Below, in pieces: positions 3,277 to 30,426 of a DNA stretch of 35,621 bases; the stretch's first letter is position 1, and each line of letters begins with the position of its first letter. The translations under genes and the position numbers were made by a program. A model generated the notes under the pieces. The model had not been told where the DNA came from and ran no database searches. It worked only from the letters and a program-made list of their open reading frames with translations. Where the stretch lies: contig JASMDC010000036.1 of assembly GCA_030753015.1 (NCBI GenBank), positions 1 through 35,621 on the forward strand, read 5' to 3'. Source of the DNA: Candidatus Undinarchaeales archaeon (GTDB taxonomy: Archaea; SpSt-1190; JASMDC01).

Positions 3277-4275
<999 letters not shown>

Positions 4276-5480: not shown

Positions 5481-7097
5481 ATGGCCCTGATGAGGACTGC
5501 GTTCTCTGCGCTGACTGCCGAGCGTTCCGAGCTGGAAGAGCGGATGCCGCTGGTCGCGAGCATCAGCTTCGAGGAGCTCTCAAAGGCACGCACCGTTGTG
5601 AGCTGCCAGCCGGTGAGGTGCTCGGGCTGTGGAGCTGTGCTCACCAATCCCCGACATGTCAAGGAGGACGAGCGACTAGGTGTGCACTGGACGTGCGAGT
5701 ACTGCTCGACCGTGAACATCATCTCCAAGGACGAAATACCACCCGGGGGCGGCGACGATATCGACTTTGTCCTCGACGAGCCACCCGACACGAAGGAGAG
5801 CCCGGGGTCCCTTCCGGAGTCCAAGAGTGTCGACACCGTAGCGGTCATCGACACGTCGGGGAGCATGTCATTCAACAAGCTCGATGCCGTGAAGCAGTCA
5901 TTGAACGAGACGCTGGCAGACCTGCGCGTCAACGCACCCACGAGCGCCTTCGCCCTCATAACCTTCGACTCCACGGTGGCCGTGCACACCCTCCCCGGAG
6001 AGGCGCCCGTCGTGCTGTCGGGCGATGTGCTCAGGAACAGCGACCAGCTGATCGCTCAGCTCGTTGAAATGATCGACCCCCGTACACTCCAGCCAGTGGG
6101 GGAGATGGGGGAGCGCTGGACCGAGCTCGTCACCTCGTTACCGGCGCGAGGGATGACCGCCCTCGGACCCGCGGTCAACTCCGCACTCTGGCTCCTCAAG
6201 ACCCGTGGTGGAGGCAGGCTCGTACTCCTCACCGACGGCATGGCCAACGTTGGCCTGGGCACGCTCACTGGACCGTCCTCGTCGGGGCGTGACTTCTACA
6301 AGCGTGCTGCCCGGTCGGCCATGGATGCGGGGATCGTCGTCGACGTGGTCGGGATGCGCGATAAGAGCGAGAGCAACGAGATGGCGCTGGACGTCATCGG
6401 TGAGCTGGCCTCATCGTCCGGCGGTGGCATCTACTACGTCTCCGCTGCCGAGGTGGAGGGGAGCTTCCGCCAGATCAGGGGCCAGGAGTTCCTGGGGCAT
6501 GACGTGTCCCTTCGCCTCGTGACTCCCCGTACCCTCGAGGTCGAGCGCATCACCGGCCCGGGGGCGAAGGCGGATGCTGCTAAGACGCGTCTGGGAGCGG
6601 TCACCGCCGACCGCGAGGTGTTCATCAGGCTCAAGCGTTCGGGCAAGCTCGAGAAGAAGAAGGTCCCGCTCCAGGCCCAGATCGAGTACCGCGACGCCCA
6701 GGGCAGGCGTCACCTGCGCGTGTCCTCCATCAACGTCGACACCATCAAGGACGCCAAGGCGTACGCCAAAGGGTACGATACTGACATCCCGACGGTCATG
6801 GCCATGCAGGAGGCGGGCGAGGAGTACTTCCGCAATCGGACGGCGTCGTCTCTCGATCGGCTGCGGGCCATGAAGAACAACCTCGCCACCGTCGCGTCGA
6901 GCGCCCCGATCGGTAAGGCCCAGGACACCGCCACCAAGAACCTCGCGTTCGTGGAGCGTGAGATCGATCGATTGAGCAAGGCTGAGTCGGAGATACGCCC
7001 TAAAGCGGCCAAGGCGAGCAAGCGAGCCGTCAAGGGCCTCTCCATGCAGCGCATGTCCGTCTCACAGAGGCATGCTGAGGACGATGACTGTGGCTGA
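5481..7097 (+). CDS. Sec23/Sec24-like protein: zinc finger, vWA trunk, beta-sandwich, helical region
   Basis: The 538-residue protein has no signal peptide. Residues 47-75 form a zinc finger, C-x2-C-x21-C-x2-C, inside CSGCGAVLTNP...W-T-C-EYC-STVN, close to the Sec23 pattern C..CRAVLNP...W.C..C...N. A vWA domain (~117-333) follows with an intact MIDAS (DTSGSMS, 125-131), a strand FALITFDSTVAVHTL resembling Sec23's LITYGNVVQLHDL, GMTALGPAVNSAL, LLTDG, and FYKRAARSAMDAGIVVDVVG. Residues ~340-420 are beta-rich (LEVERITGPGAK, QAQIEYRDAQGRRHLRVSS) like the Sec23/24 beta-sandwich, and ~425-520 are helical. No gelsolin domain is present. In eukaryotes Sec23/24 form the inner COPII coat; here the role is unknown. 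A plain vWA protein with an added zinc ribbon is the alternative. Its end overlaps the next gene by 26 nt. Confidence 0.72.
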   Translation: MALMRTAFSALTAERSELEERMPLVASISFEELSKARTVVSCQPVRCSGCGAVLTNPRHVKEDERLGVHWTCEYCSTVNIISKDEIPPGGGDDIDFVLDEPPDTKESPGSLPESKSVDTVAVIDTSGSMSFNKLDAVKQSLNETLADLRVNAPTSAFALITFDSTVAVHTLPGEAPVVLSGDVLRNSDQLIAQLVEMIDPRTLQPVGEMGERWTELVTSLPARGMTALGPAVNSALWLLKTRGGGRLVLLTDGMANVGLGTLTGPSSSGRDFYKRAARSAMDAGIVVDVVGMRDKSESNEMALDVIGELASSSGGGIYYVSAAEVEGSFRQIRGQEFLGHDVSLRLVTPRTLEVERITGPGAKADAAKTRLGAVTADREVFIRLKRSGKLEKKKVPLQAQIEYRDAQGRRHLRVSSINVDTIKDAKAYAKGYDTDIPTVMAMQEAGEEYFRNRTASSLDRLRAMKNNLATVASSAPIGKAQDTATKNLAFVEREIDRLSKAESEIRPKAAKASKRAVKGLSMQRMSVSQRHAEDDDCG

Positions 7098-8529
7098 CCG
7101 CGTTCTCATCGGCGTGCTGTGCCTCGTGCTCATCCTAGCACCGGTACTGGCCGGGACCGGCGACACCTGTGGTGGGTTCGGTGAACCCGTCGTGCTGTCC
7201 GACCACGACAGCTATGTCAATGCGCTCGCGGTCGATGAGCAGTTCCTCTACTCGGGCTCCGCCGATGACACCGTACGGGTGTGGGACCTGGCCAACGAGC
7301 TGGCGGCCTATAAGACCCTGAGGCCGGACGGATCAATCGTCAATGCGCTCCAGGCCCAGGACGGGCTGCTCATCGTGGGGACCAAGGGAGGCTCGATCAC
7401 CCTGCTCGATGCTGCCCGGGGTACCTTCCTGCCCGTAGGCAGCCGGCTCTCCGTGGGAGAAGCCGTGTACGCGCTCTTTGTCCATGATGGGCGTCTGTAC
7501 GTCGGGACGTGGGGCGGAAAGCTTCTCGTGTACGGATTCCCCGGTCTGGAGAGCATCGACACAGTACAAGCGCACCGCTTCCCCGTACTGGATATATTCG
7601 CTGCTGACGGACTCGTCTACACGGCCTCGAAGGACAACTCGGTCAGGGTCTGGAACGCCACTACCCTGGAGCCGGTGCGCACGCTCACGGGCCATCTGGG
7701 GAACGTGTACAGTGTGATCGTTCACGAGGGACTGGTGTACACGGGTTCCTACGAAGGGAGTATCGGCGTATGGCGTGATGGCGACGCTCCCGTCGTGAAG
7801 CCCGGCCCGGGCCCTCTGGTGCTCGCGCTCACAGCGGATGACCGTTACATCTACGCGGGATATGCCAACGGTCTCGTGCGTGTGCTCGATCCCGTCACGT
7901 GGGAGGAGGTCGCGAAGCTGTCCGGCCATCGGGGTGACGTTAATGCCCTGGTCGTCGACGGGCGCCGGCTCTACTCGGGTGCATGGGACGATACGGTGTT
8001 CGTGTGGCAGCTCCCCCCCAAGTGTGGCGATGGCGTGTGCGGGAAATGCGAGCAGGACGTCTGCTGCCAGGACTGCGGGTGCCCCGGCGGTATGCGTTGC
8101 AGCAATTACGTGTGCTGTCCACGGGGGCTGCAGTGTTGTACCGACCACGCTGACTGCGGGGAGGACGAGTTCTGCGGCCCCGCTGATGCTTGCCTCACGA
8201 AGGGTGACGATGGCGCCCTCTGTTCCAGCGACGTAGCGTGCCTCTCGGGATCCTGCTCCCATGGCATGTGCTGCCCGGCGGGGACCGTGCGCAGGGACGG
8301 TACGTGCGCCACGCCCGAAAAGACAGGCGGTCGATGCACCACTGACTTCCATTGCGCCGACAGCAGCTGCTCCTTCGGTAGATGCTGTCCTGCGGGCACA
8401 TGGTGGGGCCCGCTCGGTTGTCGGACCGATTACCCCGTCATGTCCAGCGTCATCCTGGGCCTTTTCGTGCTCGGACTGGCGATCGTGTGGGACCGGGCAG
8501 GACTGTTCGACTGGTCAGGGCGCTGGTGA
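7072..8529 (+). CDS. Exported WD40 beta-propeller with Cys-rich stalk and C-terminal anchor
   Basis: The 485-residue protein has an N-terminal signal segment (VLIGVLCLVLILAPVLAG), seven WD40 blades (~35-312, for example YSGSADDTVRVWDL, YTASKDNSVRVWNA, YSGAWDDTVFVWQL), a Cys-rich region (~315-445) that opens with CGDGVCGKCEQDVCCQDCGC, and a membrane segment near the C-terminus (SSVILGLFVLGLAIVW). The propeller would sit outside the cell on a disulfide-rich stalk, with a short tail inside. WD40 propellers bind proteins, so a ligand or surface-assembly role is likely. The start overlaps the Sec23/24-like gene, implying translational coupling. A GTG at 7090 with TGAGGA 8 nt upstream is an alternative start that keeps the signal segment. 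Confidence 0.85.
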   Translation: MLRTMTVADRVLIGVLCLVLILAPVLAGTGDTCGGFGEPVVLSDHDSYVNALAVDEQFLYSGSADDTVRVWDLANELAAYKTLRPDGSIVNALQAQDGLLIVGTKGGSITLLDAARGTFLPVGSRLSVGEAVYALFVHDGRLYVGTWGGKLLVYGFPGLESIDTVQAHRFPVLDIFAADGLVYTASKDNSVRVWNATTLEPVRTLTGHLGNVYSVIVHEGLVYTGSYEGSIGVWRDGDAPVVKPGPGPLVLALTADDRYIYAGYANGLVRVLDPVTWEEVAKLSGHRGDVNALVVDGRRLYSGAWDDTVFVWQLPPKCGDGVCGKCEQDVCCQDCGCPGGMRCSNYVCCPRGLQCCTDHADCGEDEFCGPADACLTKGDDGALCSSDVACLSGSCSHGMCCPAGTVRRDGTCATPEKTGGRCTTDFHCADSSCSFGRCCPAGTWWGPLGCRTDYPVMSSVILGLFVLGLAIVWDRAGLFDWSGRW

Positions 8530-8648: not shown

Positions 8649-10502
8649 ATGAAGACCAATCGGGGATATCGACTTCTAGTATCGATTATGATCATAGCTG
8701 TACTTTTTATGAGCGGTTGTACAGAAAGTCAACCCCCAGCAGAAGTACCCGACCCGAACCAGAAAACACCAGAAACCACCTCCGAAGTGTCCGAAAGGAT
8801 CCAACCGGTACCAGGAATATCCGACCCGGACCAGAAGACGACGGAAGCCACTCCTGAACCGTCCGAAGTGATCCCACCGACACCGTCAACAATCCCGGAT
8901 GCACCCGATGCTAACGAATACATGATCAGTGGTGATGCTAACGCTGATTCAGGGGATTACTCCAAAGCGATAACCGACTATAGCAGAGCTATCGAATTGG
9001 AGCCCAATAACGCTCTGGCATATTCCAGTAGAGCGACCGCTCAAGCAATGCTTGTAGAACATACCAGTGCGATATCCGACTTTAGTAAGGCTATTGAGCT
9101 GGATCCGAAAGATGCGGTGTCATATCGTAATAGAGGAGCTGTACACCAGGCGACAGGAGATAGTGCCAGCGCGATATCCGATTTTGACAAAGCGATCGAA
9201 CTGGACTCAAAAGATGTTGATACATTTTTCAATAGAGGAATGATCCAAGGTATGCTTGGAGATTTCTCCAAAGCCATATCTGACTTTGATAAGGCGATTG
9301 AGCTGAGCACGGAAGACTCTGCGGGATTGTTCAAGATCTATTACATCAGAGGCGCCATCCATAGCGAATTAGGGGAGGATCCCAAAGCCTCATCTGACTA
9401 TAGCAGGGTCATTGAACTGAACTCAGAATTCTCCAGCGCATATTATGATAGAGGAAGTACCTACTACAAGTCAGGTGACTACTCCAGTGCCATATCCGAC
9501 TTCAGCAAAACGATCGAACTGGATCCAGAGAATTTCAAGGCATATTACAACAGAGGGACCGCTCACTGGTTCGTGGGCGTAAGCTCCAAGGAGCTGGAAA
9601 GCGCGTCCAAGGCGATATCCGACTACGATAAGGTAATCGAGTTGGATCCAAGAAATTCAAAAGCATATCAGGGCAGAATCTCTGCTTACCAGTTACTTAA
9701 CGCATTGGGGGATGAGACTAACGCCGTATCAGATTATGATAATGCTATTATGCTAGACTCAAAGGATGCTACTGCATATTATGCTAGGGCAAGGACCTCC
9801 TTCTTGTTAGGAGAACATTCCACTGCTCTAACTGACTATAGTAAAGTCATTGAGCTAGGTGCAGCCGATGCCGTGGTTTATTACGAGCGAGGCGATGCCT
9901 ACGGCGCGTCGATGGAATATTCTGATGCCTTACCTGATTTTGATAAAGCCATCGAGTTGGACCCGGGATATGTCATGGCATATGTTTCCAGGGGAAGTGT
10001 TCATGGCCTATTGAAAGACTACTCAAAGGCAGTATCCGACGCCACCAAAGCTATTGAGCTGGATCCGAATTCTGCTTTAGCATATTTGGGTAGAGGAAAT
10101 GCCTATGCGAGCATGGGCGCAAAATCCTACGTACAAGGAGAAAAATCCAGAGCTTCAGAAGAGTATATCAAAGCCATATCCGATTATACGAAGGTCATAG
10201 AATTAGCACCCACTTACGCTGATGCGTATTACAACCGGGGAACTACGTATTATAACATGGACCTGGGAGATCTATCCAGAGCACAACCTGACTTTGATAA
10301 GACAGAAGCACTAGGAGGAAGAACGTTCAAGAAACCCGAACAAGCAGTTCAGTTCACAGCCAAACAATTCCCATCCTACCCTAAACGCGGGCCATCAGTA
10401 TCCTCCGGATCGGGATACGGCAGCGAAATATTCTCTTCCGCCATGTCTATGCCGACCTGGTCTAACAGAGTCTATGTGAAACCCGCATATGATTGGCAGT
10501 GA
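8649..10502 (+). CDS. TPR-repeat lipoprotein, AT-richer than its neighbours
   Basis: The 617-residue protein starts with a lipoprotein signal ending in FMSGC (Cys ~25), then a Pro/Thr/Glu linker of ~65 residues with an internal duplication (PDPNQKTPE.. / SDPDQKTTE..). About 13 TPR units of ~34 residues follow; each carries a core such as AYYNRGTxYxxxGDYSxAISDFDKAIELDP. TPR superhelices bind proteins or peptides, so this is a surface-tethered scaffold or binding protein. The last ~60 residues are Ser/Gly/Tyr-rich without TPRs. Codon use (AGA, ATA, GAT, TTA) and base composition are clearly more AT-rich than the surrounding genes, a sign of recent acquisition, although the promoter looks normally archaeal. 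Confidence 0.92.
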   Translation: MKTNRGYRLLVSIMIIAVLFMSGCTESQPPAEVPDPNQKTPETTSEVSERIQPVPGISDPDQKTTEATPEPSEVIPPTPSTIPDAPDANEYMISGDANADSGDYSKAITDYSRAIELEPNNALAYSSRATAQAMLVEHTSAISDFSKAIELDPKDAVSYRNRGAVHQATGDSASAISDFDKAIELDSKDVDTFFNRGMIQGMLGDFSKAISDFDKAIELSTEDSAGLFKIYYIRGAIHSELGEDPKASSDYSRVIELNSEFSSAYYDRGSTYYKSGDYSSAISDFSKTIELDPENFKAYYNRGTAHWFVGVSSKELESASKAISDYDKVIELDPRNSKAYQGRISAYQLLNALGDETNAVSDYDNAIMLDSKDATAYYARARTSFLLGEHSTALTDYSKVIELGAADAVVYYERGDAYGASMEYSDALPDFDKAIELDPGYVMAYVSRGSVHGLLKDYSKAVSDATKAIELDPNSALAYLGRGNAYASMGAKSYVQGEKSRASEEYIKAISDYTKVIELAPTYADAYYNRGTTYYNMDLGDLSRAQPDFDKTEALGGRTFKKPEQAVQFTAKQFPSYPKRGPSVSSGSGYGSEIFSSAMSMPTWSNRVYVKPAYDWQ

Positions 10503-12520: not shown

Positions 12521-13366
12521 TCAGCTCACCCGAGCGATCACCGCAGCGTGATCCTTCTCGAATGGCATAAGGTGCCTCGTTTCGGCGATGGCGAGCCCCG
12601 AGCGTTTCAGAATCCCCATCTGTTCAGCGAAGATCTTGGAGGGCTGTTGCGACACGTCTATCGACCGCGCCTTGATCATCAGCACGAGGGTCCCTTCGGG
12701 CATGAAGGCACGAACGTTCGCCACGGATATATCAGCCTGGTCAGGCTGGGCCACGTCCTGGTACACCACGTCCACAGGTCCCACCAGATCGGAATATCTC
12801 GCTGGTTTCCTGGCGTCCGCAAGGATGGGTACGATGTTGGGGCGCCGCTCTGCTAGCCGGAACAGGTCGCGCATGGAGCGCGGGGCGAACTCAACCGCGT
12901 ACACCACACCTCGAGTGACTATGTCACTGATGTGGGATATGGTAGTCCCAGATGCCGCACCGAGGTAGAGCACACGCGAGTCGCGTTTGAAGGGAAGGGA
13001 TGCGCATCCCTTAAGGATGGCCGCGGAGAACTTGGACCGGAATGGGTCCCAAACGCGCAGCTCGTCGTCACCATGCTTGATGAGCCGCTCGTCGTACACG
13101 CGCGAACCGGGGATGAGGTTCTTTGTGGCCGGACGAACACGCGTGCCCTCCCGTACCTTGAACATGTTGGGACCCAGGGGTTCGACGTTCTTGCCCGGGC
13201 TCATGGTGAGCCCCGGATGCCGATCGAACTGACGAGGTCGGTCGCGCTGTTGGCGGTATGGCCGGTCGCGTTGCGGCGGTCGACCGCCACGTCCGCGGTC
13301 ACGGCCACGGTCCCAGTTTCTGCCCCCGGAGTTGCCGAAGTTGCGTCGCGGTCTGTCGTTTCCCAT
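12521..13366 (-). CDS. flpA: Fibrillarin-like rRNA/tRNA 2'-O-methyltransferase with Arg/Gly-rich N-terminal tail
   Basis: Fibrillarin is the SAM-dependent methyltransferase of archaeal box C/D RNPs and acts with Nop5 and L7Ae. Residues ~60-281 are the family: LYLGAASGTTISHISDIV (SAM site), VYAVEFAPRSMRDL, ILADARKPARY, VYQDVAQPDQADI and LMIKARSID. Unusually, residues 1-54 form a low-complexity tail with 16 Arg and 9 Gly (SGGRNWDRGRDRGRGGR), resembling the GAR domain of eukaryotic fibrillarin, which archaeal proteins normally lack. The start is supported by a TGATG overlap with the nop5 stop and a GGGGGTGG upstream; Met55 would be the start of a tail-less form. Nop5 is directly upstream in the same operon. 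Confidence 0.95.
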   Translation of the reverse strand: MGNDRPRRNFGNSGGRNWDRGRDRGRGGRPPQRDRPYRQQRDRPRQFDRHPGLTMSPGKNVEPLGPNMFKVREGTRVRPATKNLIPGSRVYDERLIKHGDDELRVWDPFRSKFSAAILKGCASLPFKRDSRVLYLGAASGTTISHISDIVTRGVVYAVEFAPRSMRDLFRLAERRPNIVPILADARKPARYSDLVGPVDVVYQDVAQPDQADISVANVRAFMPEGTLVLMIKARSIDVSQQPSKIFAEQMGILKRSGLAIAETRHLMPFEKDHAAVIARVS

Positions 13367-14457
13367 CAGGCGCCACCCCCTTTGGCCTTGCCCTGGGCTA
13401 TGATGCGCTCGACCTTCTCATCGAGGGCCGTCTTGAGCTCCTCGCCGTGGTCCTCGTGCGAGTAGAAGTCCATCTTGGCGGCAAGTGATATCTTCGCTGC
13501 CAGCGCCCGCGCCACCTTTCCCCGAAGCTTGGGAGGAGCGTGGCCGATGGCAGGATGCTGGAATATGACACCGTGCTTGGGGGATGGGGTCCCCTTGGCC
13601 AGGTGCTTGAACAGCGCTCGCTCTGCTCCAAGGATCTGGACCGTTGACGATGGCATGCGGGCCAACCGTTCGAGGGTTCCTGAGATCGAGATTATCCGTG
13701 CGCCCAGGTTCGCTCCCGCCACGGTTCTTATGTTGGGGGCGAGCTCGGTCATAAGCACATCGATGTAATTGACGATGGCGTCACGCTGGGTGTACATCTC
13801 ACGGAGGGACGCGGCGAATCCGGACACGGCCGTGATGTCTGCATCGGCGAGCTTTATGCCAAGGGAACGGCCAGCGTACTCGACGATAGTGGGATCGCCT
13901 GAGGTCTGGGCCACGACATCCCGTTCACCGGCGAGCACCAGCGAGACGAACCGTTCGTGGTCGGTCACCTCCTGGTCGAGCTCGGGGAAGTGGATGCCGT
14001 ACCACTCCCTGATCCGCTCGGAAAGGAGGTTCAGGGTCTTGTCCAGCACGTCGAGCGCTTCGATGGCGTTCGTAGCGAGCCGGTCACGCCCGACGCCCTC
14101 GTGCATGGCGAACCGCACCAGGTCTAAGGCCACAGCATTCTTGAGGGCAATGATGTCTTCCACATCCCCGGATCGGAATAATTCGGCCTCGTTCTTGAGG
14201 ATGTACCGGGTAGCAGGGTTCAGGCGCTCTTTCTGATAGCCCTCTTTCTTGGTGTCGAACACCACGTCCTCTCCCTTCTTGGGCTTGACCTTCTTGAGAA
14301 GGGCCTTCTCCTCCTCCACTATCTCGCCTGAAGCGATGCTGTGGAGACGGTCGGCCACTTCTGCGGGCTCACGCGGGAAGGGTACATTAGCACGGAGCTC
14401 TCCCCCTTCGTCCACTGCGTACACTCCGAGGATGTTCCTGCTGATGTAGATGACCAT
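13366..14457 (-). CDS. nop5: Nop5 (Nop56/58-like) box C/D RNP core protein
   Basis: Nop5 bridges L7Ae, the box C/D guide RNA and fibrillarin. The 363-residue protein has a divergent N-terminal domain that binds fibrillarin, a coiled-coil middle, and the conserved NOP domain: TVAGANLGARIISISGTLERLARMP, then GAERALFKHLAKGTPSPKHGVIFQHP. The Lys/Ser-rich C-terminal tail of many homologues is absent. The frame opens to 14553, but the ATG at 14457 (MVIYISRNILGVYAVDE) is where family sequence begins, and the upstream 32 residues look untranslated. The stop overlaps the fibrillarin start by one base, so the two subunits are co-translated. Confidence 0.95.
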   Translation of the reverse strand: MVIYISRNILGVYAVDEGGELRANVPFPREPAEVADRLHSIASGEIVEEEKALLKKVKPKKGEDVVFDTKKEGYQKERLNPATRYILKNEAELFRSGDVEDIIALKNAVALDLVRFAMHEGVGRDRLATNAIEALDVLDKTLNLLSERIREWYGIHFPELDQEVTDHERFVSLVLAGERDVVAQTSGDPTIVEYAGRSLGIKLADADITAVSGFAASLREMYTQRDAIVNYIDVLMTELAPNIRTVAGANLGARIISISGTLERLARMPSSTVQILGAERALFKHLAKGTPSPKHGVIFQHPAIGHAPPKLRGKVARALAAKISLAAKMDFYSHEDHGEELKTALDEKVERIIAQGKAKGGGA

Positions 14458-14560
14458 ATGCTCGCCGTCCGTTGGTCCGCACCATACCTTGAAAAATGTT
14501 TGGAAAAGGAGCGGCGGCCCATTTCTGGTGTTAAAGTGAGTGGGGACCGGCACGCGACAG

Positions 14561-17286: not shown

Positions 17287-18798
17287 TCACTCCCAGTGAC
17301 GACGCTGTCGCCGGAACAGAGGTTCGTCCTGGACGTACCCCTTGCCGGCAGCGATGGCGATCTCTGCTCTTGCGAGCTCGGCACCAAGGTACGCGACGTG
17401 GTCAAGAGCCCGCACGAGGCCCCGTGCAAGCACTTCCGACCAAACCTGTCGTGCCGATACCCCATCCACAAGGCATACATCCACGCCATCACGCTGGACC
17501 AAGCACTGGATGCGGTCATCGGTCGTGACCGAGATGGAGAGCGCCACTCCCCCCTCAAGATCCGGAGACCGGTCGGATTGTGGTTCCGGTGTAAGGTCCG
17601 AACCGACAGGATCACGTACACGTACCTTGTCCTTGAACCCGAGGAGCGAGATCCCCAGGTCCTTCGGGTAGGTCCCTAGGCTGCCAGCGACGACCATCAT
17701 GTCCCGGGCCGCCCTGCACTCACGAACCGTGCCCCGCGTCTTGTGCGAGGCCTCGACCGTGAGGATGACGGCGACGTCGAGCTCGTGAGCTATGGCGCAG
17801 AGCATGGCGTTCGCGCCAGGGGAGTCCGCGTCCATCAGTTCGACCGCGTTCCCCACGCCCATGAGCACAGGGAGGTCCGATGTCCCCGAGATATGGGCGT
17901 AGGCTGCGAGCGAGCGCGCAAGACCAAAACCTGGCGGATCGAGCACGGGATCGAGCACGATGCGCGTGAAACCGCGAGCCCTGGCCCGGTCGGCCATGGA
18001 CAGTACTCCTTGGACCTTGTCCCCGGGGCCTGGAACGACGACACACACAGCATCGGTGGGCCTGACCTTATCAAGATTATCAGGATGGAGCGATAGCACC
18101 AAATGGACACCTGCGTCCACAGCGGCATTGATGATGTCGGGATTGAGCGTGTCCACGCTCACGGGGGCCCCCAGGGGGAGCACCGCCTCCACGATCTCGG
18201 CAGCCCGAATCGCGGTCGCGTCCACCGTGAATCCCAGGTCGATTATCTCGGCCCCCTCGTCCAGGAAGCGCTGCGCCTTTGCGACCACCTCGTCGGTCGG
18301 GCGAGCATCGCAGTCGTCGATCTCTGCGAGCACCCGTACCGGGAGCCCTCGCCCTATCCGCAGTCCTCGGACCTCGTGACTTGGCCCCTTGATATCGACC
18401 GCCTCGGCGTCCTTAAGGAGCCTCCCGGCACGTTCCGCTCTCGAGCGGGACAGGAGCGCATCTGCCGGTTCGTCGGGTGACAGGGGAAGATCGTCGAGTT
18501 CCGCGAGCGTCGAGGGAAGGTCGAACGCGTATCTCGGACCCTTGACCACACGCACGCCTGCACTACTGGCCAGGGCAGCAACGTCCCCCCGTATCAATCC
18601 AGGGAGGATTACAATGTCCCATTCTCCGCCATCGAGGAGCGGTGCGACCTCGTCCGGTATCAGGAGCGCTGCCACGTCCCTCGGAGCGATCCGCACTTCG
18701 ACATCCGGCCCATCCCCGGGCATACCTGCGACCGCGGCACGGACAGCAGCCTCAGCACGCCGGGCGGTCACGAGGAGCACTCGCTTCCTTCGAGCCAC
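17287..18798 (-). CDS. Dihydropteroate synthase-like protein of the methanopterin pathway (TIGR00284 type)
   Basis: This archaeal family is thought to join the pterin diphosphate to the ribofuranosylbenzene phosphate made by MptG during tetrahydromethanopterin synthesis. The 503 residues have three parts: an N-terminal ~130-residue domain (KRVLLVTARRAE, WDIVILPGLIRGD), a pterin-binding TIM barrel (~145-385) with EGAEIIDLG, VSVDTLNPDIINAAVDAG, IVLDPVLDPPG, LMGVGNAVEL and LTVEASHKTRG, and a C-terminal ~100-residue domain. It starts with GTG at 18798 directly after the TAA of the DUF447 gene, so translation is coupled. The pairing with DUF447 and the divergent mptG support the pathway assignment. 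Confidence 0.88.
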   Translation of the reverse strand: MARRKRVLLVTARRAEAAVRAAVAGMPGDGPDVEVRIAPRDVAALLIPDEVAPLLDGGEWDIVILPGLIRGDVAALASSAGVRVVKGPRYAFDLPSTLAELDDLPLSPDEPADALLSRSRAERAGRLLKDAEAVDIKGPSHEVRGLRIGRGLPVRVLAEIDDCDARPTDEVVAKAQRFLDEGAEIIDLGFTVDATAIRAAEIVEAVLPLGAPVSVDTLNPDIINAAVDAGVHLVLSLHPDNLDKVRPTDAVCVVVPGPGDKVQGVLSMADRARARGFTRIVLDPVLDPPGFGLARSLAAYAHISGTSDLPVLMGVGNAVELMDADSPGANAMLCAIAHELDVAVILTVEASHKTRGTVRECRAARDMMVVAGSLGTYPKDLGISLLGFKDKVRVRDPVGSDLTPEPQSDRSPDLEGGVALSISVTTDDRIQCLVQRDGVDVCLVDGVSARQVWSEVLARGLVRALDHVAYLGAELARAEIAIAAGKGYVQDEPLFRRQRRHWE

Positions 18799-19464
18799 TT
18801 ACGTCACATCCCCCGCGAGCGCCCTGATGCGGCTGGCAAGGTCCTCACCATCTGGACGCGTCCGCTGCACGATGTCGAGTGCGATCTCGACACGCTCAAG
18901 CCATTCTCGGCGTTGCTCAGGTGTCGATACGCGGGCCCTCGTGGCATGGACCAGCGCCTCCATGAGCTGGCCATCACCTCGGGACAGGGGGCGTGGCGAT
19001 ATCACAGAGATGACGGCACGGTCCGGTCTGAGGGTGACGGATATGACGTTGGTCTCGCCGATACCGTCGCTCACCATCTTCGCCTCCTGTCGCGCCACCT
19101 TCACGGTGATCGAGGCGAAGCACCCCGCGATCCGCGGAACAGGACCATCCCCCTCTTCGCTAAGCGACCCTTCGAGCGCCGCAAGGAGCACCAGGGGATC
19201 ATGAGTGAGGTGTACGGCCCCATTCCCCTCCTCGAGCAGCGCATCGCGCATCCGTCCGGGGAAAAGACGAACGTGCACGGAGCTGCCTCGCCGGACGCAA
19301 CCAACGGGAACGGCGTGTCCCCTGCAGGATATCAGGCACTCGTGGACAACGCCCTCATCTAAATGGGAGAGGGCACGGTCCAGTTCGATATCAGTATCAT
19401 CCGTTATAGTCCACCCCCACCCGCACGAGGGAGTTGCAGTAAGCACAGGTACACACACCATCAT
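18799..19464 (-). CDS. DUF447 family protein, flavin-reductase-like split barrel
   Basis: The core (~36-220) follows the DUF447 plan: VVHECLISCRGHAVPVGCVRRG, VHVRLFPG, GNGAVHLTHDPLVLLAAL and a helical C-terminus. DUF447 proteins resemble FMN-binding split barrels and often neighbour methanopterin genes; no reaction is established. The start is uncertain. The only in-frame start codons lie inside the preceding zinc-ribbon gene, giving an overlap of 68 nt and a Cys/Pro-rich first ~20 residues unlike the family. A sequencing or true frameshift near 19400, where the upstream gene ends in ATGA, would explain this. The stop abuts the GTG of the dihydropteroate synthase-like gene. Confidence 0.75.
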   Translation of the reverse strand: MMVCVPVLTATPSCGWGWTITDDTDIELDRALSHLDEGVVHECLISCRGHAVPVGCVRRGSSVHVRLFPGRMRDALLEEGNGAVHLTHDPLVLLAALEGSLSEEGDGPVPRIAGCFASITVKVARQEAKMVSDGIGETNVISVTLRPDRAVISVISPRPLSRGDGQLMEALVHATRARVSTPEQRREWLERVEIALDIVQRTRPDGEDLASRIRALAGDVT

Positions 19465-19651
19465 CGGTGAGGTCGTCCTGTTCGAGCGGAGCGCCGCACT
19501 GCGGGCAATGCACGGTCTTCACCTGCATGTGCCGATCGCCGATGATGGCCGGCTTGCCGGAGGGTTTGTTGGCGATACGCGGGACCACTAACCTCTTCTT
19601 GGACAGTTTGCGTATCCGTTTGAGCATCGCCTCCCCGTCGTCCGTTTTCAC
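19397..19651 (-). CDS. Small zinc-ribbon protein
   Basis: The 84-residue protein has a basic N-terminal half (MLKRIRKLSKKRLVVPR) and a C-terminal zinc ribbon with HCPQCGAPLE and, ~20 residues later, CTCAYC. Such ribbons bind one zinc and usually mediate contacts with nucleic acid or protein. The GTG start at 19651 is supported by GGGAGG about 8 nt upstream; an ATG at 19627 is the alternative. It is the first gene of a likely operon with DUF447 and the dihydropteroate synthase-like gene, driven from the GTTATAAC element at 19687-19694. Confidence 0.75.
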   Translation of the reverse strand: MKTDDGEAMLKRIRKLSKKRLVVPRIANKPSGKPAIIGDRHMQVKTVHCPQCGAPLEQDDLTDDGVCTCAYCNSLVRVGVDYNG

Positions 19652-19686
19652 CCGTTCAGCCTCCCGTTCACGGGGGGTGCGGAACA

Positions 19687-19694
19687 GTTATAAC
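19687..19694. promoter_or_regulatory. Palindromic TATA element between the divergent methanopterin genes
   Basis: GTTATAAC is its own reverse complement. On the plus strand it ends 24 nt before the mptG GTG at 19719. On the minus strand it lies ~36 nt before the zinc-ribbon GTG at 19651. It can serve both directions. Confidence 0.5.
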
Positions 19695-19718
19695 TCTTAC
19701 CAGCCCGCTCCCCCTCCT

Positions 19719-20711
19719 GTGGAGGAGGAGCCACTCCAATCTGTTGAGGTATCATCGCCATCACGGCTGCACCTCTCCCTCCTGGACCTCAATGGCGACT
19801 TGGGAAGGATCGACGGCGGTCTCGGAGTGGCGCTCCGAGAACCACGCTTGCACCTTATAGCGGAGCACGCGCCCGGTCTTTCGGTGACCGGTCCCGGGAA
19901 GGACCTGGTTCGTTCCTATGCCAAACGGTTCTGTGCTCAGCATGGGATCGACGGGGCTAAGCTCACCATCAAGGCCTCCATCCCCCGCCATGTCGGATTC
20001 GGTTCAGGTACTCAGTCCGCACTGGTCGCGGGGAGTGCCATTGCTCGCCTCAACGGGCTTGAACGGACACCACAGCAGGTGGCGTGTGACCTCGGACGGG
20101 GTGGTACGTCCGGCATCGGTGTGGCCACGTTCGACAGAGGGGGGTTCATCGTTGATGGTGGTCACTCTTTCGGTCCGGGACAGGAGAAGGAGAGGTTCCT
20201 CCCATCCAGCGCCTCTCGTGCAGATCCACCCCCCGTCCTCATGCGCATCGCCTTTCCATCAAGTTGGCGCTTCGTCGTTGTGGTCCCGCACACGGCGCCC
20301 GGCATCCACGGCGATGCCGAGCGGGCCGCGTTCGCTGAACGATGTCCCGTCCCACGCGACGCTGTCGAGTCCCTCTGCCGGCTTGTTCTCATGAAGCTCT
20401 TGCCCGCGGTGGTCGAGCGAGACATCTCGGGGTTCGGCGAAGCGGTCACGGCCCTCAGACTCGAGGGATTCGGCCGCGTGGGAGCGGACCTTTCTCCTCC
20501 TCGTTCGATAGAACTGGTCGAGCATCTCTTGCACGAAGGTGCTGCCGGCGCAGGGATCTCCTCTTTCGGTCCGGTGGTGTACGGGATAGTCGAGGGGGCA
20601 CGAGGAGCACGCCAGCTCCAAGACTCAGTGATGCCCCACCTCAGAGAAGGGGGCAAGGTGTTCATCACCCAGGCGGACAACCGGGGCGCCCGCATCCGTC
20701 CGATCTACTAA
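19719..20711 (+). CDS. mptG: Beta-ribofuranosylaminobenzene/phenol 5'-phosphate synthase
   Basis: MptG condenses phosphoribosyl diphosphate with 4-hydroxybenzoate (or 4-aminobenzoate), with loss of CO2, in the first step specific to the methanopterin side chain. The 330-residue protein matches the family: SSPSRLHLSLLDLNGDLGRIDGGLGVAL at the N-terminus, the GHMP-kinase-like loop PRHVGFGSGTQSAL, GRGGTSGIGVATFDRGGFIVDGGHSF, and GISSFGPVVYGIVE near the end. The frame is open far upstream, but the GTG at 19719 gives the family length and lies 24 nt after the TATA element, so a leaderless GTG start is likely. It is divergent from the other methanopterin genes. Confidence 0.93.
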   Translation: MEEEPLQSVEVSSPSRLHLSLLDLNGDLGRIDGGLGVALREPRLHLIAEHAPGLSVTGPGKDLVRSYAKRFCAQHGIDGAKLTIKASIPRHVGFGSGTQSALVAGSAIARLNGLERTPQQVACDLGRGGTSGIGVATFDRGGFIVDGGHSFGPGQEKERFLPSSASRADPPPVLMRIAFPSSWRFVVVVPHTAPGIHGDAERAAFAERCPVPRDAVESLCRLVLMKLLPAVVERDISGFGEAVTALRLEGFGRVGADLSPPRSIELVEHLLHEGAAGAGISSFGPVVYGIVEGARGARQLQDSVMPHLREGGKVFITQADNRGARIRPIY

Positions 20712-23828: not shown

Positions 23829-26066
23829 ATGAACAGGCGTCGACGTGGATTCCTTTCGGTGGTCGCCTTCCTCATGATGGTGTACACCCTCCTCGATATC
23901 CTCAACCTCTACTATGACACCCTCCGTGTGAGCCAGCAGCAGCTGGACATCGGGATGGCGCTCGACCAGATGGTCTACATCGAGTCCAATATCGCCAACA
24001 GTTACTGGGGCGTCGTGGACCAGAGCTTCGGGCTCGCGTACGGCGCCGACATGCGTGAGGGCACCAGACGGTACCCGGTAGCGGACACGCTCTTCACGAG
24101 AGAACGGTTCTTCCTACCATGCGAGATCGATGTGGACGGTCTCCTCCAGAACGCTACACGGCGGAACCTCCTGAAATGGGCCCGGGCGACGGCCGTGCTC
24201 CTGCGGTTCGAAGGTAAGGAGGTGAACATCACCGTGGACGGTGCGGACGGGGACCTGACCGACCTCGCCGACGCATTAACCTTGGAGATGGACAGGTCGG
24301 ACTGTGGAATGAACGGCTGCTGCGACATCACGTTCCCCTTCACTAACGACACTCGCGAGCCGCCCGTGTCCGACATCGATGCCCGGTACGGTGGCCATGA
24401 CCTGTGCACCGACGAGTGGCCGGGATGCCCTGCGGTGCCAACAGGCCTTCCCAGTGACTTCTGCATGGCGATCAGCCCGTGCGAGGTGTACGAGGACGCC
24501 CAGACACTGGCCCAGTACTACTCCGGGATCGGTCACTCTGCGGGGAGCCTAGCCATGTCCAACCTCTTCGGCTTCACCGCGGCCTGTCCGGACTGCATCG
24601 ACCACGCCACCGGCCAGACGCTCTCGCGGGACATCCGGTTCCCCAAGTGCCCCGAGTCGGCATCACCCGCATGCCGTGCCGTGGAGGGGTTCGCACAGAA
24701 CGTTGGCCGGGGCATGGGGCTGGCGTTCCTCTCGAGCTGCCCTTACGGGAAATGGCACGACATCACTGTGGGCGTGCCCGTGCGCAGCTACTGTTCCCGC
24801 GACTCCAGGGATGTCGACTGGCCCGGCAGTGATGAGGACAAGCGGCTGCTGGGACCATCGGTCTTCGAGGATGGCGTGGTGGACGACGAAAGAGTTGAGT
24901 CCATGGTTTGTTCGGGATATGACATCTTCGACGCCTGCGGTGGCGCCGGACTGCTCGACACACCGCGACAGACCTACGGCGGCCAACACTGCTGCCTGTG
25001 CAACGACACCTCGCCCGAGTTCACGACCACTCGCATCTGCCTTTCCTGCAACAATACGGTAGACCTGACCATGATGGACGAGCTCGATGACCAGCTCCAC
25101 CTCAATGGCACTTCATGGGACAGGGAGAGGGTGTCCTTGTTCGAGGATCCCGAGGTGGACGATACGGGCATCGTCGTGGAACGCACCTGTCGCATGACGA
25201 CCAATACCTGCAACCACTTCACCATCCGCACTTCGCTCCCGGTACGGGTCGACGTCTCCCTGGCCGATGACCTCTACCGCATCTCGTCGTCCTTCAAGAT
25301 GTCCGGCAGGCGGCGGATCGGCCGACGCTGCTCCCTCCGCCGCATCGACTGGGCGGCCATGGAAGCGGCCTGCCGCGTCCTTTCCGCGGTCCAGGAGGTG
25401 GCGCCGCCCACGATGTACCAGGTGTTCGTGGGCCTGGACGGGATCTGGACGGATTACCTCGTGAGCTCGGGCGTGCCCAACGTCGTCCTCGGCTTCAACT
25501 ACACCGATGGTTCGACCGACGTCAATGCCAGCGCTCTCGGTCCACCAGCCCTCATCGGCGCGCTCATCGAGGCGATTCTGTCCAACCGCGACGCCTTCAG
25601 CGTCGATGGCAACGACTACCATTTCATCGATGCCGCGGGATCGGCTCCTGCCGGTGTCCAGGCCCGGTGCCAGCCAGGCAACACATGTCGCTACCGCTCG
25701 CTCGAATCCGGCCTCGGAGGGGGGATCGCTGCCATGGACCCCGGTCTGCTCGCTCGGGAGGACAGTGATGACCTCCGGGCGCTCCTCGTGCGTAACGAGA
25801 CGGACAGCGATGGCGAGCAGTTCTGGGTACGCAACGATCCTGCCATCGGGTACGACGTCCTCCTCGAACCCGATTACGTGGACAACATCCTATCGCTCAC
25901 ATTCGACTCCCCGTCCCTGACCGGGCTCGGCGGAGTGGGGGCACCCGACATCCTCACGCGAGGTAAGGACTGCGAATGGACCGCAGAGAAGGAGGAGTGC
26001 ATGCGCCACATGCTCCGGATCTTCTATGGCCCGTTCTGCAGGTGGGGGGTGGACCCCGTTGGATAG
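23829..26066 (+). CDS. Large Cys-rich membrane-anchored surface protein
   Basis: The 745-residue protein starts with MNRRRRGF and a membrane segment (LSVVAFLMMVYTLLDILNLY), followed by a ~720-residue extracellular part rich in Asp, Cys and aromatic residues. Cys clusters recur (NGCCDITF, CPDCID, HCCLCNDT, ICLSCNN), which suggests a disulfide-stabilised structure. I recognise no domain. The basic head plus N-terminal anchor is the same design as the gene 3 nt upstream, and the following gene overlaps by 41 nt, so three proteins are likely made together and may form one complex on the cell surface. Confidence 0.78.
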   Translation: MNRRRRGFLSVVAFLMMVYTLLDILNLYYDTLRVSQQQLDIGMALDQMVYIESNIANSYWGVVDQSFGLAYGADMREGTRRYPVADTLFTRERFFLPCEIDVDGLLQNATRRNLLKWARATAVLLRFEGKEVNITVDGADGDLTDLADALTLEMDRSDCGMNGCCDITFPFTNDTREPPVSDIDARYGGHDLCTDEWPGCPAVPTGLPSDFCMAISPCEVYEDAQTLAQYYSGIGHSAGSLAMSNLFGFTAACPDCIDHATGQTLSRDIRFPKCPESASPACRAVEGFAQNVGRGMGLAFLSSCPYGKWHDITVGVPVRSYCSRDSRDVDWPGSDEDKRLLGPSVFEDGVVDDERVESMVCSGYDIFDACGGAGLLDTPRQTYGGQHCCLCNDTSPEFTTTRICLSCNNTVDLTMMDELDDQLHLNGTSWDRERVSLFEDPEVDDTGIVVERTCRMTTNTCNHFTIRTSLPVRVDVSLADDLYRISSSFKMSGRRRIGRRCSLRRIDWAAMEAACRVLSAVQEVAPPTMYQVFVGLDGIWTDYLVSSGVPNVVLGFNYTDGSTDVNASALGPPALIGALIEAILSNRDAFSVDGNDYHFIDAAGSAPAGVQARCQPGNTCRYRSLESGLGGGIAAMDPGLLAREDSDDLRALLVRNETDSDGEQFWVRNDPAIGYDVLLEPDYVDNILSLTFDSPSLTGLGGVGAPDILTRGKDCEWTAEKEECMRHMLRIFYGPFCRWGVDPVG

Positions 26067-29000
26067 ACGGGTGATGCTAGTTCTAGTGCTAGTAATGGCC
26101 GTCGGAACAGCGATCTGTCCTATCGAGGGCGAACGCCGATGCTCGGGCAACTCCGTGGAGGAGTGCCAGTGCGGCATGGAGTGCGATTGGCAGGTCATCC
26201 AGACCTGTGCCTCGGGCCTCGTCTGCAGTTTCGATCGCACCGAGGTCTCCCACGAGGAGTGCGTGGACGCACCCGCACCTCATTGCGAGGAGGTGGTCGA
26301 CGCAGTCTGTACAGGCGAGCGCTGTGACGGCCTCGACCTGACGGTCAACGAGTGCCAGGGCGGCGCATGCGTCGACACCGTGCTCCAGACCTGCACTGCA
26401 GCGGGTGTGGAGAGATGCGTCGACTCAAACCGGCTGCGCACGTACGCGGGATGCGAGGACTCGGGCGACGGGACGTTGGGCTGCCTCTACTCCGGTGATG
26501 AGTTCTGCAACACCAACTCGGAGTGCTCGGGCGACCAGATCCTCATCGGGACGTGCAACGTCGACCGTTGCGAGAACACGGTGCCCGACGAGCTCTGCGA
26601 TGACCGGTGCACATCCCAACGGGACGGCGAGAGCCGGTCCTGCGACGACTCGAGCGGCGATGCCTTGTGCGTCGTGGACTCCACCGTCCGGTGCGGGGAC
26701 ACCTGCGCGGACCCGCGCAACCTCCAGCTCAAGAGCTGCGATGACACGTCGGGCGCGCCGGTGTGCGTTGTGGATACGACAGACCGCTGCGACGACCGGT
26801 GCGCCATCGATGGCGGTTACGACAAAGAGGTCCGGGAAGGATTCTGTGACGACTCGGGCCTGGACGCAGTGTGCAACGACCGGTTCCAGGAGCGGTGCGA
26901 CGACTCCTGTGACGATGACCGGCACTCCAGGTTCTGGATGTGCCAGGTTGACGGCGGCACGGGCCTCGCATCATGCATCCTCGATACATCCCGTGGCGAC
27001 GGATCGACCCCCGGAGTCGAGCATTGCGACGACCGGTGCGCCACCAGCAAGCGTATCCACGAAGGGTACTGCAGCCCCCAGACGCTCCCGTTCCAGCCCG
27101 ACGCCCAGTGCGACGACCGGTTCGATCCGGCATACAATCCGGACCCGGGCGGCCACTCGGACCTTGGTTACTGTATCGATGAGTGCTTCGATCCCCAGGC
27201 GGACGTCACCGGGTGGAGCCCTGCAGCTGATGGGCACCAGACTACTGAGAGTTTCGACCGCCAGATCCATAAGTACTACTGCCAGCTCGAGGCCGACGGC
27301 CTCGCGTCGTGCGCGGACGAGCGTGACACCGACTGCTTCGAGCAGAACTTTGCGGCACACTTCTACCACTCGCCGACCGGCTGGTCGTTCTCGTTCGCGG
27401 GCAACGACGGCCGTGTCATCCCCAGCGAAGGCATCTACTTCATGCGCTGCGAGACCGATCTGGAGGAACAACGTGACAAGCAGTGCACCTACGCCGACGT
27501 CATCCACAAGTGCGACGACTGGTGCTCCACGGACGGTACCGAGGACGGTCGGGTGCGCGACGGCGCCACCCATGAGAACTGGCTGCGTTACGCGTACAGT
27601 CCCGTGACCCCGCCGGTGCCCGCCGATCTGGACGACGTGAAGGAGGAGTTCTGCCAGCCCACGAACGTGGAATGCCAGCGGTTCGACTACTGCCTCTCGT
27701 CCGATGACCTCCAGGAGTACAGCTGCACCACCAGCGGCGGCGACCTTCCTGAAGAGTCCAAGTGTCGTCGGGATACGATCGACAGCCGGACCCCACTCGC
27801 GGATTGGGACCAGACGACCGAGGACGTGGTGACCGTTGATTACTGTCACGGGGGCGAGTGGCGCCAGTGCACGGGGCCCGGACGTCAGCGAGGTGCCGAC
27901 CCATGCTGCTCCGGTGAGATCGACGCGATCCTCAACATCACCGAGATGCGGGACGAGACTAACAGCATCGACAACTGCCGGTCGGACCCTGACGAGGTGG
28001 GGAGCAGGGCCTGTGACGACGTGCGCACCGACGTCGGTGTCACCGAGGAAAGGACGGTCACGACCAGGGACGGTCGGGATACGTTCGACGTGGACGTGGA
28101 TCCCGCCCTCGAGGTCGTGGCAACGCTCAGCGGCCACTCGGGCCGTGTGTGGGACATCCTGGCCGACGACGACCACATCCTTACCGCTTCGAACGACGAG
28201 AACGTCACGGTATGGGAGCGGGGCGGCACCTGGGCCAACCTCGCCAATCTAACGGGACACACCTCCCCGGTCATCAGACTTGCTAAGGACGCCACATCGA
28301 TTTACACGGCATCATCGGACAGCACAGTGCGTGTGTGGGAGAACGGAGGCAGCTTCACGCACAACACCACGCTCTCCCACTCGGGCGTGAACGACGTATC
28401 GGTCAACGGTGACCGCATCGCAGTGGCATGCGTCAACGGCACGGTCCAGATATGGGAGAACGGGGACGACTTCACTGCGCTCCAGACGCTCGGAGGGCAC
28501 GCGGGCGCGGTCACTGCTGTTCACATCGATCCTGACTACATCATCTCCGGTGGACAGGACTTCGCTGTTATCGTGCGGGACAGGGTCACAGGTGGTCCTT
28601 TGGCCACTCTGGTGGACCATCTCGGCATCGTGATGGAGGTATACTCCGATGGCGACTACCTCTACTCCGCCTCCCTGGACGGCACGGTCATAGTTCGTCA
28701 GCGCACACCCCCTTTCACAATCCTCACTATCCTCGAGGCCGCTACCGCGATAACCGACGTCGATGCTAGGGCGGACTACGTGTTCGCCGTCGTGGGCAAC
28801 GGTACGATCATGGTGTGGGACCGGGGCGGCACCTGGGACCCGGTCAACCTCGTGCGTAACTTGGCGAGCGGATGGGCCGTCTCATCGGATGTCGACTATA
28901 TCTACGCAACCCCGGGGAACACGGGCTCGGTCCGCATCCCCGATCTCGTCGTTGAGACCAACACGACCTTCGAGGTGAACCTCACCTCGGGCGGGAGCAT

Positions 29001-30426
29001 GCTCTCGGCCCGGTTCGAGCTGACGGGGAGCGGGGCACCGCTCCCAAGCGACATCACTCTGGACGTGGGGAGCGACGATACCGATGACTGGTCCAGAGCA
29101 GGTGTGCTATCAGGCCCGGTCACCACCGGCGACCTCTCCGCGGCATTCCAGGCCGAGCTGGACGCATGCGTCCTGCCAGAATACGAGAACTGCACGATCA
29201 ACGTTACGCTGTCGTTCCAGAACGGCGGGACCGTTGCCGTAACCGACATCGACCTGCGTGTGATGGTCTTCCGACAACCGCCCGGTGTGGAGATCCCGGG
29301 TTATGTGGCCGGACGGCTCGATAGCGATGTCACAGCGGGAGGCCGCACCCGAAATCAGGTGTGCGGGCCCTTCCCCGAGTACGACGACGCCACGGAATGC
29401 TGCATGACCTCCGCTCAGGTCCTCCAGTGCACGACGGCGATCAATACGTTCAACCTCAACGCCATCGAGGACGTTCGACCCGCTACTTGGTGCGACGATG
29501 CATGTGGGAACGTTGGCGACGTGTTCGAGCAGATGCATGACTCGTTCAAGGGCACTTTCGAATGCATGCTGAACGGCTACTGCGTCGACGTGCGTCGGGG
29601 GATGTGCTGCACCGATGCCAACTGCCACACATGTGGCCTGGACACCGACGACGCCTCCTGCGCCGACCTGTTCGATGACAAGACCTGTGGCCCGGGCGGC
29701 GACGAGTACTGCTCGCAGAAATGCTCGACCTGCTTCATCAACGCGACCGACCTTCTCATGGGGACGGTGCTCACCGAGCTGAACAACATCACCAGTCCCT
29801 TCGTGGTCGGCCACATGCGCAGGCTGGCGGACAACGCCATGTGCGACACAAACACCCGCTTCTGTCGAAGGAAGATTCTCGGTGAGCAACCCTGCACGCC
29901 GGACGGGGAGCAGCTGGACGCTATGGGCCGCAACTGGCGCAGCGACAACTGCATGTCCGGTGTGTGCGACGCTGGATGGGGGCGCTGCGACAACGAGTCC
30001 ATGCGCGGTGGCTGGTACCTTCGGGGATTGGATGCCGTACCCGCGGTCGAGCCGGAGCCAACGGACCTGTGCGATGACCTCCAGGGGAGCGGCATCATAG
30101 AAGCGATGCGCGACATGTGGTGCGGTGACCAGAACAGAGTAAACACGCTCCTCGATATCCATTTCGTGGCCAACTACACCAACGTCCCCTGCCTCCGGTG
30201 CCCCGATCTCGTGCCGCCACCCGGCGCCACCATGCCGCCCGACTACTACGGTGGAGGGGGCGATGTCGAAGAGACGGTCATCACCCAGGGTGAAACGCCC
30301 ATCCCTGAGCCAGCACCAGAAGGGCTCGGTAGCTTCAACCTCTCGCCCAACAATGCCGGGATCGATGCACTCTTCCCTGCCCTGGTGGCCGTGTTCCTCA
30401 TAGGCCTCCACCGTCTGCGCGTGTGA
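26026..30426 (+). CDS. Giant Cys-rich surface protein with embedded WD40 propeller and C-terminal anchor
   Basis: This 1,466-residue protein has a signal segment (VMLVLVLVMAVGTAI), a long Cys-rich region (~35-680) built from repeats around CDDRC/CDDSG/LCVVD, a seven-bladed WD40 propeller (~693-955; SGHSGRVWDILADDD, TASNDENVTVWE), a beta-rich region, a second Cys-rich part (~1110-1400), and a C-terminal membrane segment (ALFPALVAVFLIGL) with a basic end. It should stand outside the cell anchored at its C-terminus. WD40 in an exported protein is unusual. The ATG at 26026 overlaps the upstream gene by 41 nt; a TTG at 26059 with GGGGGTGG 6 nt upstream fits the signal peptide better. Confidence 0.85.
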   Translation: MARSAGGGWTPLDRRVMLVLVLVMAVGTAICPIEGERRCSGNSVEECQCGMECDWQVIQTCASGLVCSFDRTEVSHEECVDAPAPHCEEVVDAVCTGERCDGLDLTVNECQGGACVDTVLQTCTAAGVERCVDSNRLRTYAGCEDSGDGTLGCLYSGDEFCNTNSECSGDQILIGTCNVDRCENTVPDELCDDRCTSQRDGESRSCDDSSGDALCVVDSTVRCGDTCADPRNLQLKSCDDTSGAPVCVVDTTDRCDDRCAIDGGYDKEVREGFCDDSGLDAVCNDRFQERCDDSCDDDRHSRFWMCQVDGGTGLASCILDTSRGDGSTPGVEHCDDRCATSKRIHEGYCSPQTLPFQPDAQCDDRFDPAYNPDPGGHSDLGYCIDECFDPQADVTGWSPAADGHQTTESFDRQIHKYYCQLEADGLASCADERDTDCFEQNFAAHFYHSPTGWSFSFAGNDGRVIPSEGIYFMRCETDLEEQRDKQCTYADVIHKCDDWCSTDGTEDGRVRDGATHENWLRYAYSPVTPPVPADLDDVKEEFCQPTNVECQRFDYCLSSDDLQEYSCTTSGGDLPEESKCRRDTIDSRTPLADWDQTTEDVVTVDYCHGGEWRQCTGPGRQRGADPCCSGEIDAILNITEMRDETNSIDNCRSDPDEVGSRACDDVRTDVGVTEERTVTTRDGRDTFDVDVDPALEVVATLSGHSGRVWDILADDDHILTASNDENVTVWERGGTWANLANLTGHTSPVIRLAKDATSIYTASSDSTVRVWENGGSFTHNTTLSHSGVNDVSVNGDRIAVACVNGTVQIWENGDDFTALQTLGGHAGAVTAVHIDPDYIISGGQDFAVIVRDRVTGGPLATLVDHLGIVMEVYSDGDYLYSASLDGTVIVRQRTPPFTILTILEAATAITDVDARADYVFAVVGNGTIMVWDRGGTWDPVNLVRNLASGWAVSSDVDYIYATPGNTGSVRIPDLVVETNTTFEVNLTSGGSMLSARFELTGSGAPLPSDITLDVGSDDTDDWSRAGVLSGPVTTGDLSAAFQAELDACVLPEYENCTINVTLSFQNGGTVAVTDIDLRVMVFRQPPGVEIPGYVAGRLDSDVTAGGRTRNQVCGPFPEYDDATECCMTSAQVLQCTTAINTFNLNAIEDVRPATWCDDACGNVGDVFEQMHDSFKGTFECMLNGYCVDVRRGMCCTDANCHTCGLDTDDASCADLFDDKTCGPGGDEYCSQKCSTCFINATDLLMGTVLTELNNITSPFVVGHMRRLADNAMCDTNTRFCRRKILGEQPCTPDGEQLDAMGRNWRSDNCMSGVCDAGWGRCDNESMRGGWYLRGLDAVPAVEPEPTDLCDDLQGSGIIEAMRDMWCGDQNRVNTLLDIHFVANYTNVPCLRCPDLVPPPGATMPPDYYGGGGDVEETVITQGETPIPEPAPEGLGSFNLSPNNAGIDALFPALVAVFLIGLHRLRV

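Follow-up and report, generated by a model that had tools for sequence, protein, structure and literature searches.

The gene at the centre of this work lies on an archaeal contig of 35,621 nucleotides, and we call that whole stretch the window. Read from its start, the encoded protein lays out N-terminal strands, a zinc finger, a vWA trunk, a beta-sandwich and a helical bundle, which is the order found in Sec23 and Sec24 (Table 1). The original prediction, made by a model from the DNA letters, had picked out the cysteine finger ahead of the vWA domain, and the finger is there, with the spacing C47-x2-C50-x21-C72-x2-C75. Its four cysteines are kept in all relatives that cover them (53 or 54 of 55 rows, the remainder being gaps). 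The MIDAS is just as well preserved, its Asp, both Ser and second Asp being invariant in 55/55 rows and its Thr present in 54/55. The beta-rich segment and helical tail that had been read after the vWA domain appear in the structural model as a sandwich at residues about 340–420, within which QAQIEYRDAQGRRHLRVSS falls, and as helices at residues 425–538. Close to the C terminus, R-x(0,1)-[ST] occurs in 51 of the 55 family tails where shuffling each tail leads one to expect 24, the rows being related rather than independent. Neither a signal peptide nor a membrane helix is visible in the protein, which is therefore probably cytosolic. Scanned for promoters and terminators, the surroundings of the gene gave nothing above shuffled sequences.

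Table 1. Positions in the window of the Sec23/24-core gene, its parts and two host anchor genes.
Feature	Position	Strand	Basis
Sec23/24-core protein gene	5481..7097	+	538 aa; ORF, Pfam, family alignment A2, model, fold matches
N-terminal segment, residues 1–43: first strands of the split beta-sandwich	5481..5609	+	Model strands 4–6, 10–12, 24–29, 38–40; aligned with Sec23A from residue 13
Zinc finger, residues 44–80 (C47, C50, C72, C75)	5610..5720	+	PF04810 E 0.0076, below cut-off; family-wide Cys conservation; aligned with the Sec24 finger
vWA/trunk domain, residues 114–337	5820..6491	+	PF04811 E 2.8e-12; model
MIDAS D124-T-S126-G-S128	5850..5864	+	Partners T226 (6156–6158) and D252 (6234–6236)
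Beta-sandwich, residues 340–422	6498..6746	+	PF08033 E 2.6e-7, just below cut-off; model strands 337–422
C-terminal helical domain, residues 425–538	6753..7094	+	Model helices; alignment to Sec23A reaches residue ~636; no gelsolin domain
Basic-x-Ser/Thr site R524-M-S526, possible phosphosite	7050..7058	+	Conserved near the C terminus in family tails
Fibrillarin, host anchor	12521–13366	-	Pfam
Nop5, host anchor	13366–14553	-	Pfam; 6.3 kb from the Sec23/24-core gene, same contig

Kinship with Sec23 and Sec24

Taken as a single sequence, the protein matches the three Pfam models of the Sec23/24 core unevenly. Sec23_trunk scores 47.2 bits at residues 122–262, above its cut-off of 27; Sec23_BS scores 31.6 bits at residues 340–420, 1.9 bits under the cut-off of 33.5; and zf-Sec23_Sec24 scores 16.7 bits at residues 44–80, under a cut-off of 25. 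The profile matches proposed as a check of the original prediction were thus obtained outright for the trunk and fell short for the sandwich and finger, the latter being recovered once a family profile aligned it colinearly with the finger of Sec24. A six-row family profile matches Sec24A colinearly from the zinc finger through the sandwich (E 3e-13), and with 55 rows the E values are 8e-16 for Sec24, 8.5e-10 for ArnB and 9e-7 for Sec23. At the level of sequence, the resemblance is not due to chance.

The structural comparison points the same way. An AlphaFold model built with the 55-row family alignment (pLDDT 90.8, pTM 0.90) was run through Foldseek against the PDB, where the top 46 matches, judged by the listed entries, are all Sec23 or Sec24 chains (best E 2.3e-31); ArnB comes after them at E 5.6e-18. 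VIA-align lays model residues 1–538 over residues 13–636 of Sec23A, with 490 residues matched, Z 29.5 and rmsd 3.7. The corresponding Z values are 25.6 for ArnB, over 360 residues, and 22.4 for ArnE (vWA2). The sandwich is formed in the model, which can be superposed on Sec23/24 along its entire length. Aligned with Sec23A, the model ends close to residue 636, the point where Sec23 continues into its gelsolin domain, and Pfam finds no gelsolin match in the protein, just as the prediction of a Sec23/24 order minus gelsolin had it. A search of the rest of the window genome found no gelsolin domain either, nor a second Sec23/24-like paralogue. Two outcomes had been named beforehand as speaking against a Sec23/24 relative, a generic vWA match alone and a post-vWA part that does not fold as the Sec23 sandwich; we saw neither.

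A tree that left out the N-terminal and zinc-finger columns puts the family and Sec24 on one side and ArnB with two other archaeal vWA proteins on the other (98/99). The split is strong but not final, since long branches meet there, and ArnB appears more distant from Sec24 than the family does. With a Sec23/24-type trunk, a zinc finger before it, and the split sandwich and helical domain after it, the protein is, on its sequence and model, almost certainly an archaeal member, single-copy and without the gelsolin domain, of the Sec23/Sec24 core family. With the eukaryotic proteins of the COPII inner coat it shares the split sandwich, the zinc finger in cis, the vWA trunk, the helical domain, their order and the modelled fold. 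It differs from them, as far as sequence and model tell, in having no gelsolin domain, in its intact MIDAS and in coming from one gene instead of a Sec23–Sec24 pair. That MIDAS had been taken as the mark of an ancestral-like form. The motif is indeed complete (D124, S126, S128, T226 and D252), and its intactness may well be the older state, a reading that fits because the MIDAS is also intact in ArnB and throughout the archaeal family (PMC12852372).

A family known from Asgard archaea

PF04811 rises above its cut-off in 6 of 394 archaeal genomes, the window genome among them, and the other five all have full-length relatives. The family profile (A2) gives full-length matches of over 600 bits in the window genome and in eight more, of which seven belong to one family group and one to another. 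The window protein itself scores 602 bits over profile positions 1–533. All remaining matches stay at or below about 35 bits and cover part of the profile, the next non-Asgard archaeal match reaching 35 bits over the vWA domain only. A search of the genome contigs with the single protein brought up no relatives; the alignment-based search did find them. Among the matches listed, relatives come from Jordarchaeia, Freyarchaeota, Sigynarchaeota, Helarchaeota, Lokiarchaeota, Borrarchaeota, Hermodarchaeota and Thorarchaeota, Heimdallarchaeia do not figure, bacterial rows cover only part of the protein, and full-length relatives are confined to Asgard archaea and the window genome. Identity to the Asgard family runs from 26 to 37%. 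None of nine class-mates of the window genome has a Sec23/24-like gene.

That Asgard archaea have such proteins, as the original prediction noted, is already in the literature: Sec23/Sec24 families have been reported in Thorarchaeota (PMC7997004), and PMC9648965 cites Asgard Sec23/24-like proteins from Zaremba-Niedzwiedzka 2017. Ours is a new member of this Asgard-type family. It has in common with the known members its domains, intact MIDAS, zinc cysteines, C-terminal basic-x-Ser/Thr site and full-length profile match, and differs in its host outside the Asgard phylum, its lack of an adjoining GTPase or roadblock gene and its long separate branch.

The gene neighbourhood

In Thorarchaeia-type loci, the Sec23-like gene keeps distinctive company. 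In 29 of 31 such loci the 2 kb downstream of it contain a roadblock gene (Pfam Robl_LC7), and in 25 a GTPase gene (Pfam Arf) is no more than 4 kb away. At one of them (L063, 9944–14769) the Sec23-like gene, two roadblock genes, an Arf-family GTPase and a UppS-like gene all run on the same strand, and other Thorarchaeia-type loci are built likewise. Gene order in Thorarchaeia is conserved across the whole region or most of it, so the nearness of the GTPase may reflect shared ancestry rather than function. The arrangement is absent from the other Asgard lineages, save for four Lokiarchaeota loci where, about 0.8 kb upstream, there is a gene for a Ras-like GTPase. In the window, no GTPase or roadblock gene lies near the Sec23/24-core gene. 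The window genome does have one Arf-family GTPase with an adjoining roadblock gene, on contig 33, and the same pair occurs in two class-mates.

Immediately downstream in the window, and sharing the last 26 bases of the Sec23-like gene, is a WD40-repeat protein gene (7072–8529). Its product has a signal-like N terminus, an EB-like Cys-rich part and a hydrophobic C terminus. We considered it as an analogue of the Sec13/31 outer coat and set it aside, because the signal-like start and hydrophobic C-terminal helix suggest that it probably faces outside.

What might the protein do?

Our best explanation as a whole joins a Sec23/24-core identity and a non-Asgard host to the work of a switchable adaptor, and on balance we lean toward it. 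The adaptor role taken by itself is a tentative proposal that we hold a little short of probable. The protein would act in the cytosol as a protein-binding adaptor, holding partners through the metal-binding face of its vWA domain and through the C-terminal helical region with its basic-x-Ser/Thr site. The switch for binding would be a module of small GTPase and roadblock protein, to which gene order in Thorarchaeia points, phosphorylation as in ArnB, or both. By analogy, the C-terminal site may be where phosphorylation takes place. Sec23 is the GAP of Sar1; with the gelsolin domain of Sec23/24 absent, the protein could not act on Sar1 in the manner of Sec23.

The strongest competitor, which we think possible although distinctly less so, is a signalling adaptor controlled by phosphorylation in the way of ArnB, sharing the Sec23/24 core and having nothing to do with membranes. 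ArnB, a phospho-regulated adaptor that works with ArnA in Sulfolobus, has, like ArnE (vWA2), the same split sandwich, a vWA domain with MIDAS and a C-terminal helical bundle, and has been described as Sec23/24-like (PMC12852372). The extent of the structural match to ArnB and the conserved basic-x-Ser/Thr site near the C terminus both favour such an adaptor, as does another archaeal vWA protein (L138, 1048–2628) that carries a C-terminal FHA domain on the same chain, like an ArnB–ArnA fusion. The tree speaks against it, grouping the family with Sec24 and leaving ArnB outside, and so does the zinc finger, which sits in cis at the Sec23 position, whereas ArnB has none of its own and finds one on its partner ArnA. 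ArnB also has an ArnB_C domain (PF18677); a true ArnB orthologue (L132) matches it at E 3.8e-29, whereas our protein gives no hit up to E 1. Nor was any FHA domain found at E 0.001 in the window genome or its class-mates by a search that was positive in Sulfolobus acidocaldarius.

Less probable again is a working membrane coat of ancestral type, one that, under the control of a small GTPase, would oligomerise on the inner membrane and bend or sort it as the inner COPII coat does. In favour of such a coat, the modelled structure matches subunits of the inner COPII coat over its full length, and the Arf-family GTPase and roadblock genes next to the Sec23-like gene in Thorarchaeia suit it, as does the pair on another contig of the window genome. 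Yet that pair turns up in the two class-mates without any Sec23-like gene, and the fold is common to proteins that coat nothing, such as ArnB. The gene is single-copy, which leaves no paralogue for a heterodimer of the COPII kind, and no gelsolin domain was found in the chain or elsewhere in the genome. We give still less credence to the broader proposition of a GTPase-controlled membrane scaffold of Sec23/24 type outside the Asgard phylum, which would mean that machinery of a coat-like kind passed from one archaeal phylum to another or arose before the Asgards. On sequence and modelled fold the protein is truly homologous to the Sec23/24 core, in a host where it was not expected, and a coat role is a candidate only. 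The identification made in the original prediction thus holds, and the membrane scaffold it suggested is likewise no more than a candidate role.

An unexpected host

The original prediction spoke of an archaeon not obviously Asgard, and the host bears this out. The window genome is assigned to a phylum other than that of the Asgard genomes, and those Asgard genomes that carry the family are kin to it only as members of the same domain. At 3.85 Mb it is unusually large for its class, the nine class-mates having 0.6–1.1 Mb each. An archaeal SSU rRNA was not found in the genome, nor a tRNA in the window. If the contig were Asgard contamination or an assembly misjoin, the protein would be an ordinary Asgard one, and the size of the bin together with its estimated contamination of 5.01% gives that idea a foothold; so does the second host marker we tried, fibrillarin, which in an undecided tree came out beside Thorarchaeia (p 0.50 for a place among Asgards, p 0.47 for one within the class). 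Against this, the contig Nop5 groups with the class-mates (96/89) and rejects an Asgard placement (p 4e-5), the Sec23/24-core gene matches both its flanks in composition (GC 0.64, GC3 0.83), and the protein, alone on a long branch, is only 37–38% identical to even its closest Asgard row. Other stretches of the window genome have 55–63% GC. We hold contamination to be very improbable, and the host to be, with high probability, an archaeon outside the Asgard phylum. Least credible of all is a generic vWA protein whose likeness to Sec23/24 goes no further than the common vWA fold: generic VWA Pfam models do match, but the match to Sec23/24 covers all four domains, the family profile gives generic archaeal vWA proteins about 35 bits at most and the window protein 602, and the profile, Foldseek, VIA-align and the tree drawn without zinc-finger columns all refute it.

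Transfer or age

Found in a different archaeal phylum, the Sec23/24-core protein must either have moved between lineages or be older than was thought. In the Sec24-rooted tree it nests with Lokiarchaeota and Sigynarchaeota rows (89/88), on a long branch. A place inside the Asgards has only moderate support: that set does not reject a clade of Asgards alone (p 0.13), and the set with ArnB added barely does (p 0.041). In the latter set, a clade of Asgards and Sec24 without the window protein, as expected of descent from before them, gives p 0.064. We favour, without regarding it as proven, acquisition of the gene from an Asgard lineage over vertical descent, probably long enough ago for the local codon bias to have been taken on. 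The less favoured alternative is older vertical descent with loss.

Sec23 and Sec24 coat transport vesicles in eukaryotic cells, and their archaeal likenesses belong to the set of eukaryotic signature proteins by which Asgard archaea are linked with eukaryotes. With a full-length member outside the Asgard phylum, presence alone is no proof of Asgard ancestry. The window protein offers an independent sequence for rooting the Sec23/24 family, and the biochemistry of a single archaeal relative would reveal the task of the Sec23/24 core in the time before it was a vesicle coat.

Other genes in the window

Several other genes in the window deserve a word. A TPR lipoprotein-like gene (8649–10502) has GC 0.47 and GC3 0.47 on a contig of 61% GC and looks recently acquired. 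Genes for beta-RFAP synthase, a dihydropteroate synthase-like protein (TIGR00284) and DUF447 stand side by side at 17287–20711, a set that suggests tetrahydromethanopterin synthesis. The GAPDH gene at 3283–4275 is of the bacterial class I type, in place of the archaeal type II, and a second WD40-repeat protein, of 1466 residues (26026–30426), is hydrophobic at both its N and C termini.
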